64,000 nt of DNA. Origin: Aurantiochytrium sp. KH105 (Eukaryota > Sar > Bigyra > Thraustochytrida > Thraustochytriidae). Each line of letters opens with the position of its first letter. Within the stretch, counting starts at the first letter, position 1. Below the pieces are notes generated by a model. The model made no database searches. It had not been told where the DNA came from and saw only the letters and a list, made by a program, of their open reading frames with translations. The translations under genes were made by a program, and so were the position numbers. The stretch is taken from assembly GCA_003116975.1 (NCBI GenBank), contig BGKB01000075.1, positions 64,780 to 128,779 of the forward strand. Reading direction: 5' to 3'. Shown piece after piece: positions 26,884 to 44,383 of the stretch.

Positions 26884-29800
26884 ATGGCGTCGCGCGCGTC
26901 GCGGGCCGCGGACGACCTGAGCGACCTGGAGGACCTCGTCGCGCGGCGCGAGAGCCTCGGGGGCGGCCGCGGCGGGCGGCTCCGCACGTACACCGAGGAT
27001 GCCGGCGGCGGCGGTGCCTCGACCCGGCGCGCGGGCGAGGAGGGCGCCGCGGGCGGCAGCGGCACCAGCCGCGAGGGCGGCTCGCGCGGCGGCGGAGAGA
27101 CGCCCCCGCGCGGCTACGCGGCTCTGCGCCGCGTGAGCGGCCGGAGGAGACGCGCGAAGGAACGCAGACGCAGCGACGGGGCCATGATTTCGGCCGCGCT
27201 CGCACAAGTCGCCACGAGCGTGCGCAGAGCTGCGACCCATTCGCGCGGAAGAAGCCACGGAAGCGACGTGTACCATACAAGACAAGGATCTCACGAGGAC
27301 GAGGCTACGAGCGCAGACCTTTATTGCTCCGATGAGGATCTCACGCATGATGGGTCATCCTCGTATCGCTATTCTGACGATGACGTCAATGATCGTACAG
27401 ACCATGACTTCATTCCTGACAGCGAAATATTCGTGAACAATGCTGGAGAGTCGAGCAACGGAGATGATGGTGGTGCATACGGGCTCGACGACGCCCTTGC
27501 CCCGCGGCAGACATCTTGCCGACGACACCGTGGACGCGCCTCCCGCCGCTCCTCTGGCCATGCTTCAACGTTTTCTTCTGGGTCGGTCCCATCTTTGCCT
27601 CGTCGCCGGGGCCAATTTGACGCCACAGAAAGCGTGTCATCTGCAGCAGCACGGCATTCTCGTGATGGAGGCTCCGCTGCCTCTGCATACTCGCACGCCT
27701 CAACGCCCACATCGCAACTATCATCTCGCGGCTCGCTGTCATCCCGACGCACGGCCCCATCGCGTAATCCGCTCGCATTGCTCGACTTTCTACCGACAAG
27801 CCTCGATATCTGGCACGGTAGCACACGGTCGCGCTCTCGCGCGCTTTCGGACACCAGTGAGGTAGATTCCGAGGCAAGAGACCTCAATCCGTACGCGCAG
27901 GAAATGCAGGGCGCAGCCATGTTCGTAGATATTTCCAACTTCTCCGCTTTGGGCGATAAATTGTGCGCTGACGATGTGCGCGGGCCTGAGCAGCTAGTCA
28001 AGTTTCTCAACGGATGGCTTGCCCTAGTCGTGCGTCTCGTGAACAAAGCTGGAGGTGATATTGTCAGTTTTGCTGGCGATGCCGTCATCGTGCTCTGGCC
28101 AGTCATGAGCGCTTCCTCCCCGGACACGGCGGGACCCGAGAGCTCTAGCCTCACGGTAGCTGTGCAAAGGGCTGTACAGAGTGCGCTTGACATCCAGACA
28201 ACTATTTTTTCGCGCACTTTCGAAGAAATCGATCTCGAGTGTGGCCTCAAAGTTGGCATTGGGGCTGGTCACGTTTCGCTGCTTCACGTTGGCGGCACGC
28301 GCCAATATCGTGTACGCAACTACACCGCCGTGGGAGCGGCCGTCAGACAGGCTTTCTGCGCTGAAAAGCTTGCTCGGCCAAAAGGAGATGTCATTTGCTC
28401 TGCGGCCGCCTTGCGATCGGGCATTGACAATTATTTCGCCTGGGATGACCTCGATGGCGGCGAATTCGCCCGTATCAAGGACCAAACTGTACGCATTCGC
28501 ATGCGCAAGCAGACTCGTCTGCAGCTCCCCCAACGTCGACGTCTCAGTCGTCCCGAGGTTCTTGCAACACTGGACCCGCGGCAGATTCGACGTGCGGCCC
28601 GGCTGTACTTGCCGCCCTCTCTCTTTGCGTACGATGAGCCACTGAGTCGCGTGTCTGCCAAGGATTGGATCAGCGAACTGCGCCAAGTGACAATTCTTTT
28701 CGTTCATCTTGGTTTCAAGGCGCAAGACTTTGACCAAGGGCTCTCGGACCGCCAGCTCGAGTGGCTCAACGAAGCAGTCTATGAGCTACAAGAGGCCATC
28801 ATGGATTATGAGGGTAGTCTGAACAAGCTCAACTTGGATGACAAAGGCCTCACTGCCATGGCTGTCTTTGGATTGGCGCCACTCGCTCACGAGAATGACG
28901 CGACGCGTGCTGTACTCACCGCGCTGCGCATCGTCAGCGTCCTCGAGGCCGAATTCCGTCTCAAACCGAGCATCGGCATTACCAGTAGCCTCTGCTACTG
29001 TGGCGTGGTAGGGCATACTGCAAGTAGGCGCGAATTTTCCGTCATTGGTGACGGTGTTAATCTCGCAGCGCGCCTCATGCAGTCTGCGAAAACAAACAGT
29101 CGCGTGCGAGTCCTCACCGACGCCGGAACACGCACGCTGGTCCGAGACGAAGTCGAATTTTCCACCAATGAGCGCGACATTCGTGTCAAGGGCAAAATGA
29201 AAAAGATCAGAGTTTACTCGCCCAGCCGAGCTGGTCGTATTAATGTCGTGTCTCGATGGTCTGCCATTAGTGTTCGCATCTCGACGACCGTGGCTAACTC
29301 GACGACGACGACGGGCGTAGGGCCTCCGCCGCGTCGAGTTCGTCGCGACCGTGGACAAGAAGATGCCGAGGACTCAGCGCCGTGGGACGACCCCTCGTCC
29401 GTAGGACATGGGCCGCCCGCTGCTTCGTGGCAGCAAGAGTGGAGGTCCCAAGTTGCTCGCTACGGCACCCGCGTCGTCGAGGACTTGCGTAGCCTCCGTA
29501 TTAAGCTCATTCATGCCGGCGCAGTCGACACAACGGGGGAAGATAGCTTGGGCGACTTTCTGTCGGAAAGCTCGCGCACCGCGCATGCCGTCATGGTCAT
29601 TACTGGGGAGATTGGCATGGGAAAGTCCCACATGCTCGCACGCATTCATCGCGCACGCACGAGCTCCCGCGGGGCGTCGAGCTGCTTGGTCCTAAGCACC
29701 GCCGGCAACCCATTCGAACGAGGCGCCCTTGTACGCAGATTTGCCATTTGGATCGACCTCATTCACCCAATGCTTGATGCCGCGGATAGACGCGGATGCA

Positions 29801-32274
29801 TACACCGCTGGCTACGATTGGCTGGCTCGCGGCTCACGGACCACGAAGCTCTCGTCGCAGACCTTTTTCTTGGCCCCACAGATCGCTTGCCCTTTCAACG
29901 TAGGGGTGATCGCGACACGGACGACGAAGACGACGAGCATGCTGACGACGAAAGTGACTCGGACTCGGTGGTTCACATGCCCGGACAAAGCGAAGGCGCG
30001 AGCGATCTAATTGCCGAGCTGCTCGTGGACGTCCTTCGGGGCGTTCTCATGAGTCGTCAAAACGGCAAGGCTGCATCGCTCGTGTGTCTGGTGGACGATG
30101 CTCACCACATGGACGACGATTCCTGGATGGTCGTGGAACACATCGTTCGGCATCAACCACGTGCGATTTTCCTTGTCATGGCAATGACGGCCATGCACAC
30201 CTCGGTACCAACGCCGACGCGCCTGATTTCTCCGCGCGGGCTGCCAAGTGCCCTGCGTCGCTCCTCAATGCGCGCCAAGCTTTTGGAGAATCCGCGCGTT
30301 CACGTCGTACGTCTGGCACCGCTCGGTTATGCTGCAGTCGCAACCATGCTTCGCGCCCGACTCAATGTTCTCTCCGTGCCCGACAATCTTGTCGATATTT
30401 TGACGCTAGCGTCTCTGGGCAACCCTCTTTTTGTCGAAGAAATTTTGCAGGAAATGCTAGACTCCAAGGCCATTGACGTCGATGAGGCTTCTCGAACGTG
30501 CCAATGGCGTCGCCGGCCGCCCAAGTCTGTTACAGACTTATTTGCGGTCGAGTCCAGGCCTACAGCGCGCGCGACCCAATCGAACAAGCACATGAACAAT
30601 ACCATCCCGGGGAGCGCATTTGGGTTTTCTCCGGCTCGATCCTCTTCTTCTGTGGCGTCGTCGGCGGCTTCGTCATCGTCGTCGTCATCATCGTCGCAAG
30701 TCGGATCGGGCACCTCGGTCGCGGGTGGTGCTGCTCCTACAAGCTCTACGTCTGTGATATCAAGGCCATTGGCCGTTCTTTCGCCGTCGACACGGTCCCT
30801 CCTGCTGCACCCCGCGCGAGTGGTCATTCGCCTCGAACGTTTGATTGCTGAGCGGTATGAGCGTTTTGTTCGGCACGAATTCGTGACGCGTGACTCTGCT
30901 CACAGCCACCGTCAGCAGCGTAGCGCTGCTGTTGTCGCGGGTCTCAAGCTCGACCCACCGGCCTCCCTCGTGTGCGTCGTCGGTGCCTGGCTCAATGGCC
31001 TGACACTCCGGCAACAGGTCTTGCTTAAGATCGCCAGTCACGCCGTGGAGGCCAACAAATACTTGCATTTCCACCGCAAGCTTGTCATTGGCGCCATGCT
31101 TTTGATCGACACCTCGGCGAGCATCGACGATGTCGTCGAGGATTTTGAGCTTTTAGAAAAGGCTGGCTTTGTAGAGCTTGCGGGCGACGATTCGCTGCAC
31201 ATGTTCTCCTTTGTCCACTGGCTCATGCCGCACGCCATGCGTCTGCGCACCCTAGCCTCGCAGCGGCAAGAGATTGCCAGCAAGTTTGCTCTTGCAGAGG
31301 AGAATCACGATGCGCATATTCGACAGCGGTTTCTCACACATGCTCTTGACTCCCTTGATGGCAACACGACCATCAAAAGTGGCTTCATCATGGTGCAAAA
31401 GCACGCAGCAAGCTTGTCAAAGAACAACGCTGGCGGTTTTGTCTCATCCTCATCACGAAACTTGAACACCAGTGGTGCTAGTGCTAGTGCTGGTTTCGCG
31501 GGTACATTTCCACAGTCAACCAAGAGCCACGGACACCATCCGCGTATTCATCGCCGTCGCAGTTCGTATGGAAGCGTGTGGAAGCGACGTTTTGCCAAGC
31601 TGTACACGAACCGGCTTGACCTTTTTTACGACGAGTCTCGCTCGCGACGCATCGGTTCCATTGGACTTGACGCCAACGCTCGCTGTATGGACGCCCCTGT
31701 CGTGGGGCGGCGATCTGCCGTCTTGCGGGTTCTTTGCTACAACTGGGAGAAGCATGACATGCAGCACATTGGCGAGGAGCGATCGTTTTTCCTTTCGCCC
31801 TGCGACGAGGACCCTGCGAGTCGTGATGACTGGATTTACAAGATCAAGTTTGCCATCCAGGCAAGCACGGCGCGCCGAGCGGCGCCGCGGCGGTCTTCGG
31901 CTCTCTTACAGAGCAGCAGCAGCAGCAGCAGCAGCAATATGCATGCTCCGCGCCACAACGATGCCTCGATCGCTCCACCTAGCGAGATTCCACCGCCTCC
32001 TGACGATCCGCCACTCTTCGACCTTCCAACGAATCTGTCCCGCCATCGCACCCTGCCGGTGGAGGACCACGGCCCATTTTACGAAGACGAAGACGAGGAG
32101 GATAGCGACCGCGTAGACCTCGGACCGGAGTGGATGCACATCGAGCTTCCGCCACCGCCTCCCTCGCGCGCGTCCAAGCGCAGCCCTTCCACGATGTTGC
32201 TCCCGCCACCGCCGCCGCCTCCCGACGACCCGCCTCCCCCGCAGCCGCTCTCGCACCTCTTCGTCTCGCGATGA
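26884..32274 (+). CDS. Soluble adenylyl cyclase-like protein (two class III cyclase domains, NTPase, PH)
   Basis: 1796 residues. An Arg/Ser-rich N-terminus precedes a first class III cyclase domain at about 340-560. Its FVDISNF (about 347) and GGDIVSFAGDAV (about 398) supply the two metal-binding Asp residues, so it is probably catalytic. A second cyclase domain (about 600-780) has VHLGF in place of the first Asp but keeps LDDKGL and SVIGDGVNLAARLM, giving the usual degenerate partner of a sAC heterodimer. Next is a STAND/AAA-type NTPase: Walker A GEIGMGKS (about 907) and Walker B-like LVCLVDDAHHMDD. This order matches ADCY10/sAC, the bicarbonate-responsive cAMP source. Unlike ADCY10, the C-terminus has a PH domain (about 1560-1660; WKRRFAKLYTNRLDLFYD through DDWIYKIKFAI) and a poly-Pro tail. 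The Ser-rich inserts include a CAG-coded run. No intron is visible. AATAAA at 32324. Confidence 0.9.
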   Translation: MASRASRAADDLSDLEDLVARRESLGGGRGGRLRTYTEDAGGGGASTRRAGEEGAAGGSGTSREGGSRGGGETPPRGYAALRRVSGRRRRAKERRRSDGAMISAALAQVATSVRRAATHSRGRSHGSDVYHTRQGSHEDEATSADLYCSDEDLTHDGSSSYRYSDDDVNDRTDHDFIPDSEIFVNNAGESSNGDDGGAYGLDDALAPRQTSCRRHRGRASRRSSGHASTFSSGSVPSLPRRRGQFDATESVSSAAARHSRDGGSAASAYSHASTPTSQLSSRGSLSSRRTAPSRNPLALLDFLPTSLDIWHGSTRSRSRALSDTSEVDSEARDLNPYAQEMQGAAMFVDISNFSALGDKLCADDVRGPEQLVKFLNGWLALVVRLVNKAGGDIVSFAGDAVIVLWPVMSASSPDTAGPESSSLTVAVQRAVQSALDIQTTIFSRTFEEIDLECGLKVGIGAGHVSLLHVGGTRQYRVRNYTAVGAAVRQAFCAEKLARPKGDVICSAAALRSGIDNYFAWDDLDGGEFARIKDQTVRIRMRKQTRLQLPQRRRLSRPEVLATLDPRQIRRAARLYLPPSLFAYDEPLSRVSAKDWISELRQVTILFVHLGFKAQDFDQGLSDRQLEWLNEAVYELQEAIMDYEGSLNKLNLDDKGLTAMAVFGLAPLAHENDATRAVLTALRIVSVLEAEFRLKPSIGITSSLCYCGVVGHTASRREFSVIGDGVNLAARLMQSAKTNSRVRVLTDAGTRTLVRDEVEFSTNERDIRVKGKMKKIRVYSPSRAGRINVVSRWSAISVRISTTVANSTTTTGVGPPPRRVRRDRGQEDAEDSAPWDDPSSVGHGPPAASWQQEWRSQVARYGTRVVEDLRSLRIKLIHAGAVDTTGEDSLGDFLSESSRTAHAVMVITGEIGMGKSHMLARIHRARTSSRGASSCLVLSTAGNPFERGALVRRFAIWIDLIHPMLDAADRRGCIHRWLRLAGSRLTDHEALVADLFLGPTDRLPFQRRGDRDTDDEDDEHADDESDSDSVVHMPGQSEGASDLIAELLVDVLRGVLMSRQNGKAASLVCLVDDAHHMDDDSWMVVEHIVRHQPRAIFLVMAMTAMHTSVPTPTRLISPRGLPSALRRSSMRAKLLENPRVHVVRLAPLGYAAVATMLRARLNVLSVPDNLVDILTLASLGNPLFVEEILQEMLDSKAIDVDEASRTCQWRRRPPKSVTDLFAVESRPTARATQSNKHMNNTIPGSAFGFSPARSSSSVASSAASSSSSSSSSQVGSGTSVAGGAAPTSSTSVISRPLAVLSPSTRSLLLHPARVVIRLERLIAERYERFVRHEFVTRDSAHSHRQQRSAAVVAGLKLDPPASLVCVVGAWLNGLTLRQQVLLKIASHAVEANKYLHFHRKLVIGAMLLIDTSASIDDVVEDFELLEKAGFVELAGDDSLHMFSFVHWLMPHAMRLRTLASQRQEIASKFALAEENHDAHIRQRFLTHALDSLDGNTTIKSGFIMVQKHAASLSKNNAGGFVSSSSRNLNTSGASASAGFAGTFPQSTKSHGHHPRIHRRRSSYGSVWKRRFAKLYTNRLDLFYDESRSRRIGSIGLDANARCMDAPVVGRRSAVLRVLCYNWEKHDMQHIGEERSFFLSPCDEDPASRDDWIYKIKFAIQASTARRAAPRRSSALLQSSSSSSSSNMHAPRHNDASIAPPSEIPPPPDDPPLFDLPTNLSRHRTLPVEDHGPFYEDEDEEDSDRVDLGPEWMHIELPPPPPSRASKRSPSTMLLPPPPPPPDDPPPPQPLSHLFVSR

Positions 32275-42883: not shown

Positions 42884-44383
42884 ATGATGTCATGGTTCGC
42901 GCAGTCTGCAAGGAAGGCTACGCCCGCCAAGACGCGCTCGGCAGCTGCCGCGGAAAGGGAAAGGGCAAGACCTTCCTCAGCTGCAAAGCCTTTCGTGGTC
43001 GAAAACCAATTCGGAGAAGAAGATGAGCACGCCAGATTGGAGAAGGAGGTGGGTGACACCCACCGTGTTCACTTCAACCTAAAGGGAAATGAAGGCTTGC
43101 CGAAACAATACGAAAACGACGAGGAAAACGTGTGTCCTGAAAATGCCGAGGGATTGCCTTCGGTTCGTGGTGCAGAAAAGATAATTACCCGTTCTGCTGC
43201 TGCTGCTACAGCAAAAAAGGCCGTCTTGCACAATAGCACCAATGCCAACAACGTCATCCCAAAGACTCCGAGTTTGGACAAGGGCATCACGCCCCATCGT
43301 ACGCTTGCATTGGAGAAAATTCACGCGAATCGTGCACGTGGCGCCGCGCTCAAAGCCAAAGAAATGGCTACGATGCCTTCTCCGACAAGTGAGCCTTCGC
43401 CGTCTGCTTCTGTCTCGCCTGCAGCATCGCGTAGAAGCGAGTCATTTGCGTCCATAGATGAGTTTGATGCCGAAAGTGACACTGACCGGACGCTTATCTC
43501 CGAGACACGGCGAAGCGCGTCTGGAAGCGAAGTTCACTCTCCTTCGACTGCCAACAAGCACCCTTGGTTCGGGAAGCATCTCTATGACATGAAGAATGGC
43601 CAGCAAGAAGTGTACAAACGAGTATACGTGGCGTCGTCCCGCGAGCTGTTCAAGCACGTGAGAAGATGGTACGCGCAGAGACGTGTCGATGAGACGCGCG
43701 TGCAGCAGATCGTTGACGCCAAACGAAACGATCCATCCTTTCTTGGCACCATATCCATTTTCCAATTTGCTGAAGATGTCAGTCGCACGCCCGATGAAAT
43801 TCAAGCATGTGCCATCATTGATGGTCAGCATCGCTCGCATGCGATCGCAAAACTCCTAAAGGAGATGCCAGAAGATCAGGACATCGAGATCCTCATCGAG
43901 GTTTATAATGTGCGGAGTGAAATCGAAGTGAAGAATCTCTTTGTCGAGATCAACAAGGGCGAGAGCGTGCAGGATATTGACCTGCCCAAGCACCTGGAAT
44001 CGGCTTTTAAGAGAAACGTCGACGAGGTTTGTGAGCGTCTTCAGAAGGAATTTCCCGACATGTTCAAAGGCGAAAGATGCCGCGCGCCAAACCTTCATCG
44101 TGACAGACTTCGCAATGAACTCTTTCATTCAAACCGTTTGGAGGCCTCCGAACAGGGCGCGTCTGCTAATGCGCTCTATGATGCCATCATCACCTGCAAC
44201 AGCATATTGAGTAAACGCCCCAAGGAGAAGTGGCCCGAGTCCGTACATAGGAATCTCCCCAAAGCGAAAACGCATGGACTTTATCTCGGTCTACAAAGGG
44301 ACTGGATCGAAAAGGTACTTGAAGAGCAAGTGCTTACATTTCTCGAAGACGGCGTCGCGGACGAGTCTTTGCATACGCCATGA
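42884..44383 (+). CDS. DGQHR-domain (ParB/Srx-fold, DndB-like) protein
   Basis: 499 residues. The N-terminal ~215 are disordered (Ala/Ser/Glu-rich). The C-terminal ~280 form a domain with the signature IIDGQHRSHAI (Asp at about 314), preceded by RRVDETRVQQIVDAKRNDPS and followed by IEILIEVYNV and LFVEINKGESVQDIDLP. This order (R-x-V-D...I, DGQHR, then N-x-G) is that of the DGQHR group of the ParB/sulfiredoxin fold. The group includes bacterial DndB-type regulators of DNA phosphorothioation and proteins of phages and large DNA viruses. In this fold DGQHR sits in the nucleotide/substrate pocket. No Dnd partners lie nearby and the neighbours are ordinary host genes. Ancient horizontal acquisition is plausible but unproven. 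Two adjacent ATG-containing starts are possible, and the first is used here. Confidence 0.85.
   Translation: MMSWFAQSARKATPAKTRSAAAAERERARPSSAAKPFVVENQFGEEDEHARLEKEVGDTHRVHFNLKGNEGLPKQYENDEENVCPENAEGLPSVRGAEKIITRSAAAATAKKAVLHNSTNANNVIPKTPSLDKGITPHRTLALEKIHANRARGAALKAKEMATMPSPTSEPSPSASVSPAASRRSESFASIDEFDAESDTDRTLISETRRSASGSEVHSPSTANKHPWFGKHLYDMKNGQQEVYKRVYVASSRELFKHVRRWYAQRRVDETRVQQIVDAKRNDPSFLGTISIFQFAEDVSRTPDEIQACAIIDGQHRSHAIAKLLKEMPEDQDIEILIEVYNVRSEIEVKNLFVEINKGESVQDIDLPKHLESAFKRNVDEVCERLQKEFPDMFKGERCRAPNLHRDRLRNELFHSNRLEASEQGASANALYDAIITCNSILSKRPKEKWPESVHRNLPKAKTHGLYLGLQRDWIEKVLEEQVLTFLEDGVADESLHTP

Follow-up and report, generated by a model that had tools for sequence, protein, structure and literature searches.

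DGQHR-type nucleotide-binding proteins have been found chiefly in bacteria, phages and giant viruses, and the cysteine in the GCHR signature of sulfiredoxin (Srx) is catalytic. PMC4619093 describes this GCHR signature as well as the motifs of the DGQHR domain (QR, DGQHR and FxxxN); of the 613 organisms with complete genome sequences that it counts as having GmrSD homologues, three are eukaryotes. DndB acts as a DNA-binding regulator in Salmonella (PMC4507180), and nucleotide-degrading or nuclease roles have been suggested for it in PMC10853773. A survey of ParB-fold proteins, searched with PF02195, TIGR00180 and K03496 (PMC12704722), reports ATP and GTP binding by a bacterial DndB-like protein, loss of binding upon an R-to-A exchange in the GxxR motif of the tested NTP binders, and no NTP binding for 17 of the 28 ParB-fold proteins purified. 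Algal transposons carry ParB-like domains fused to methyltransferases (PMC12477816), an architecture unlike that of the two proteins described below, and a ParB match in PMC11512752 was rejected as false. Titles and abstract openings of the open-licence literature yielded no eukaryotic DGQHR/ParB-fold protein like the present one.

The locus under study, termed gene A, lies in a stretch of 64,000 nucleotides of the thraustochytrid Aurantiochytrium sp. KH105 (contig BGKB01000075.1, positions 64,780 to 128,779; here the window), which contains 19 ORFs of at least 300 codons. Its features are as follows.

42884..44383, plus strand: gene A, whole ORF of 499 codons (499 amino acids) plus stop, with the limits given in the first-pass annotation
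42884..43543, plus strand: leader, residues 1-220, of low-order composition, with a between-copy dN/dS of 0.15
43559..44305, plus strand: DGQHR / ParB-Srx-like domain, about residues 226-474, common to gene A and its paralogue, gene B
43676..43681, plus strand: QR pair, residues 265-266, a DGQHR-family motif described in PMC4619093
43820..43834, plus strand: DGQHR pentapeptide, residues 313-317, at the same time a match to the GxxR phosphate motif of the ParB-CTPase fold
43940..43954, plus strand: FxxxN motif (FVEIN), residues 353-357, likewise described in PMC4619093
44075..44089, plus strand: RCRxP motif, residues 398-402, present in both A and B

The ORF sits in an open frame of 522 codons, and since its copy on contig C153 retains only the second methionine, 42887 is the likelier start. 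A chance ORF was rejected on account of two open copies with dN/dS below 1, and the family matches of the encoded protein are beyond chance (E=6.9e-10 with TIGR03187); the gene and its DGQHR domain proposed from the bare sequence are thus real. The long leader joined to the domain was likewise found as described: its approximately 220 residues consist to 64% of AEGKPQRS and to 16% of CFILVWY, disorder being judged here from composition only. Its supposed nuclear character was not borne out by a pattern scan of the leader: stretches of at least three consecutive K/R were absent, as was a simple bipartite signal. A glance at mitochondrial targeting gave a net charge of +4 and a hydrophobic moment of 0.38 over 22 residues.

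All three family models with a curated cut-off for protein A score below it: TIGR03187 (39.1 bits, cut-off 58.85), PF14072 (DndB; E=1.7e-4, 21.2 bits, cut-off 29.1) and PF03235 (E=7.5e-4). Protein B reaches 24 bits with TIGR03187 (E 8e-4), so both proteins rank as divergent relatives rather than trusted members of this family. Further matches of A were to PHROG 1033 'ParB-like partition protein' (E=5e-6) and, weakly, to the PADLOC DndB model (E=0.033), while two DndB-type models remained far under their cut-offs (TIGR03233 with 15.8 of 328 bits, another with 20.3 of 450). Up to E 1, B alone had no Pfam match to a DGQHR or ParB family, neither protein matched GmrSD_C/HNH (PF07510) in the Pfam scan, and no PDB chain matched A by sequence; PF02195 matched neither A nor B. 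The QR pair (Q265-R266), DGQHR and FxxxN (F353-N357) of A are all kept in B, forming the same motif set, and they follow one another in the same order as in the DGQHR family of bacteria and phages. Residues 226 to 474 (approximately) of A are a divergent DGQHR-family domain of the ParB/sulfiredoxin fold; the family assignment made from sequence holds on the strength of the three motifs and a modelled ParB/Srx-like core, at a TIGR03187 score below the cut-off. Placement of the domain in a well-studied eukaryotic family of other function, named beforehand as the refuting outcome, was not seen in the Pfam scan.

The distance of A from its relatives is considerable. Apart from the low TIGR03187 score and the leader, it differs from that family by only 14-23% identity of its domain to 36 DGQHR examples and by a C-terminal half bearing RCRxP, which among the sequences compared is common only to B, save for one weak in-frame viral pattern case. 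The alignment of 37 rows comprises the domain of A and 36 others (35 viral loci and one bacterial locus), the viral rows being hand-picked among 60 listed of 66 non-redundant loci. As 216 phage ORFs, from at least 234 viral loci, were selected by DGQHR and F..[IV]N, the invariance of DGQHR, F and N in this alignment is there by construction. The QR pair, conserved in 90% or more of the 37 rows, lies outside the DNA patterns used to find relatives, in rows that were ranked with the A/B profile. Once DGQHR was masked, little of the resemblance between the A/B profile and the 216 phage ORFs remained (best E 0.0069), and similarity outside the motif is therefore thin. Phylogenetic analysis of 39 rows grouped A1, A2 and B as one clade against the 36 others (support 100/98) on a long stem, at which, according to a warning of the tool, long branches meet.

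Searches for closer relatives gave little: tblastn of A and of B against 50,697 phage records found no relative, and none was confirmed with back-translated peptides in viral contigs or prokaryote genomes. Scans for DGQHR combined with CRxPxL returned 13 plus 14, i.e. 27, viral stretches, with the motif in frame in one (6.5 bits); DGQHR with LFxEIN, using one of two Asp codons, hit three prokaryote loci and no viral one, and a three-part pattern hit one locus already among those found. By sequence, A and B could not be placed among the viruses, and the set of at least 234 viral loci listed may lack some viral relatives.

The domain (280 residues) modelled together with 36 DGQHR relatives attained a mean pLDDT of 69 and a pTM of 0.53, with pLDDT 80-94 in nine of the 11 ten-residue blocks of model residues 31-140 and mostly low confidence in the C-terminal half. 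Folded alone, the domain reached a pLDDT of 37, i.e. the model depends on its relatives. When the model was compared with PDB structures, ranks 1-21 were all sulfiredoxin, ParB, PadC or SbnI (best E 4.7e-3, probability 0.99), with 92 matches at E up to 10 and none at E up to 0.001; the core of the domain is accordingly described as a modelled ParB/Srx-like fold, with none of the PDB matches below E 0.001. It resembles in this respect the modelled core of the DGQHR family. The alignment profile, run against PDB sequences, produced five weak matches and no ParB-fold chain. Compared with sulfiredoxin, the modelled core appears alike and the HR of the GCHR signature corresponds to the HR of DGQHR, but A carries Gln in place of Cys, is much longer and does not match PF02195; because of this Gln, it would not work as a sulfiredoxin.

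In the BFVD collection of viral models 24 matches passed E 0.001 (best E 4.4e-10), nine of them giant-virus proteins by name and five unnamed. The first seven all bear giant-virus names, among them Marseillevirus LCMAC202, Pithovirus LCPAC304 and CroV within the overall set, and two of the seven are called HNH. Two of the names were checked as Nucleocytoviricota, and the remaining names of this type are presumed to denote giant viruses as well. These best viral matches resemble A by model, with TM-scores over the query that are low (0.29-0.41 overall, 0.35-0.41 for the first seven); the first two span 277 and 274 alignment columns including gaps, at 20-22% identity.

A protein search of the 76 Mb assembly (367 contigs) with A led to four places: gene A itself, its copy on C153 (93% identical, syntenic and with the same eukaryotic neighbours), and the paralogue B on C15 and C6; TIGR03187 retrieved the same four and no other. 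The paired contigs are presumed to be haplotypes because they are syntenic. A and B share 34% identity over 219-453 (E=3e-19); B has 359 amino acids with an N-terminal stretch that by eye is coiled-coil-like, and its neighbours resemble, also by eye, RPF2, ribokinase and an abhydrolase. The designation of A as stand-alone is apt for its domain make-up but not for the genome, where a second gene exists and both genes occur in duplicate. The four scanned neighbours of A comprise XAP5, SPMIP11, a DUF4042/HEAT match and a 451-aa ORF without match, followed by a kinesin, which agrees with a position among eukaryotic host genes. Contamination or viral insertion was rejected as the same eukaryotic neighbours flank A on both contigs. 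The control of a genome search for NCLDV capsid proteins matched nowhere, so that this search has no bearing on the question. A and B make up a two-gene family carried on the chromosomes of a single-celled eukaryote. A search of the genome for PUFA synthase yielded similar sequences of up to 930 bits, below the cut-off of 1010, which hint at a thraustochytrid; it also matched, below its cut-off, in 11 of 14 control genomes. Of eight further window ORFs, six had matches (DnaJ, cyclase plus AAA, acyltransferase, PH protein, the kinesin just named and BCKDH-kinase-like) and two had none. The cyclase ORF (26884-32274, 1796 aa) combines a nucleotide cyclase catalytic domain with an AAA ATPase domain, an arrangement taken here to be reminiscent of soluble adenylyl cyclases.

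Sensing of DNA modification, as initially suggested, would make A a DndB-like sensor or regulator, i.e. a phosphorothioate-linked repressor. DndB (PF14072 / TIGR03233) has the same DGQHR core and superfamily, DndB and DGQHR_dnd_1 are the weak matches among named functional families, and the two best BFVD matches are named 'DNA-sulfur modification-associated protein', presumably an annotation by domain. A differs, however, by scores far below the DndB cut-offs and by its surroundings: no modification gene occurs among the scanned neighbours. PF14072 had no match in the whole genome. Dnd-like enzymes elsewhere in the genome, which the first-pass annotation proposed to look for, were sought as dndC and dndE. 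DndC had no match, with a control that matched in five of 14 genomes and exceeded the cut-off in none, and DndE had none either, with a control that matched nowhere. With no DndC match, a role of A in phosphorothioation is without support; positive evidence for modification sensing did not emerge, and such a sensor is considered highly unlikely. PF02195 also had no match in the whole genome, so that not even sulfiredoxin was detected; its gene may be interrupted by introns, have diverged too far or be missing.

The GmrSD N-terminal domain (PF03235) has a related DGQ(Q/H)R motif and fold. This model hit four places in the genome, two of them over the cut-off. One ORF on C58 (L288:1251-4628, minus strand; second place on C17; 1126 codons, listed from TTG) combines GmrSD_N (E 2.2e-14) with GmrSD_C (E 1.8e-9) and an acidic repeat tail, and is predicted from these domains to be a type IV restriction-like enzyme. 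Another on C6 (L289:2755-7617, plus strand; second place on C15; 1621 codons, listed from GTG) has a long low-complexity tail and a GmrS-like domain with DGQHR that scores under the cut-off; paralogue B is located on this contig as well, at a distance of about 55 kb. A and B show no GmrSD_C (HNH) match; the GmrSD-like proteins are separate from them.

Selection was estimated from the two copies of each gene by NG86, and by YN00 where given. For A, dN/dS amounted to 0.35 for the whole gene and 0.54 (YN00 0.71) for the domain, as against the low value of the leader, and the QR, DGQHR and FxxxN motifs were unchanged between the copies. B was nearly unchanged (0.013; YN00 0.028), and the neighbours of A gave 0.06 (XAP5), 0.10 (SPMIP11), 0.14 (451-aa ORF), 0.19 (HEAT protein) and 0.09 (kinesin). 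Amino-acid to silent codon changes were 29:13 in the domain versus 7:14 in the leader with its first two codons omitted (p=0.014), 32:55 in the HEAT protein (p=0.0007) and 77:203 in the five pooled neighbours (Fisher p=3e-7). Contrary to expectation, the leader is constrained and the folded DGQHR domain is the fast part.

The excess of amino-acid changes over the pooled neighbours would suit a putative antiviral or anti-element effector, a fast-evolving ParB-fold nuclease or nucleotide-degrading protein directed against giant-virus DNA and a counterpart of the GmrSD-like proteins. The GmrSD_N plus GmrSD_C protein of the same genome and the giant-virus and HNH names heading the BFVD matches point the same way. 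Yet relaxed and diversifying selection on the domain are indistinguishable from one pair of copies, its dN/dS is about 0.5-0.7 and not above 1, A and B are devoid of any HNH/GmrSD_C match up to E 1, and the near standstill of B is not what an arms-race gene would show; the effector role is judged unlikely. The same figures, high dN only in the domain of A next to the low dN/dS of B, could mean that the domain decays under relaxed selection after duplication while B keeps the ancestral role. Both copies of A are nevertheless open over 499 codons with all three motifs unchanged and the leader constrained, and decay is regarded as quite improbable.

Somewhat favoured is a reading of A as a divergent relative from the DGQHR branch of ParB/Srx-like proteins, one of two chromosomal paralogues, acquired and then duplicated, which may serve as an NTP-binding switch or NTPase. 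Prokaryotes or giant viruses would be the source of the domain, with the duplication following its arrival in the lineage. Because A keeps GQHR, and the binders tested require GxxR to bind an NTP, a switch or NTPase is inferred; NTP binding would fit the kept GxxR (G314-R317) within DGQHR and the modelled fold. By analogy with the bacterial DndB-like protein, the GQHR loop may grip the phosphates of an NTP, most likely ATP or GTP. Binding or hydrolysis might then reshape the domain and change how it holds DNA or a partner, the latter being bound by the leader in A or by the coiled-coil-like stretch in B, with output conveyed through these parts. On this reading, the protein would have the function of an NTP switch or NTPase and take no part in DNA phosphorothioation.

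As PF02195 finds nothing in this genome, the ParB-fold survey cited above would probably have missed both A and B. A wider view, held to be rather improbable, takes the two proteins as the first examples found of a eukaryotic ParB-fold family of NTP switches, with exchange between this family and giant viruses. A, with its fast domain and conserved leader, would then be engaged in host-virus conflict and B fixed in housekeeping; together with the GmrSD-like genes they might constitute a restriction-like immunity of protists. Should A and B bind NTPs, they would represent a further eukaryotic use of the ParB fold; with A evolving fast and B frozen, conflict versus housekeeping lends itself to a direct test.
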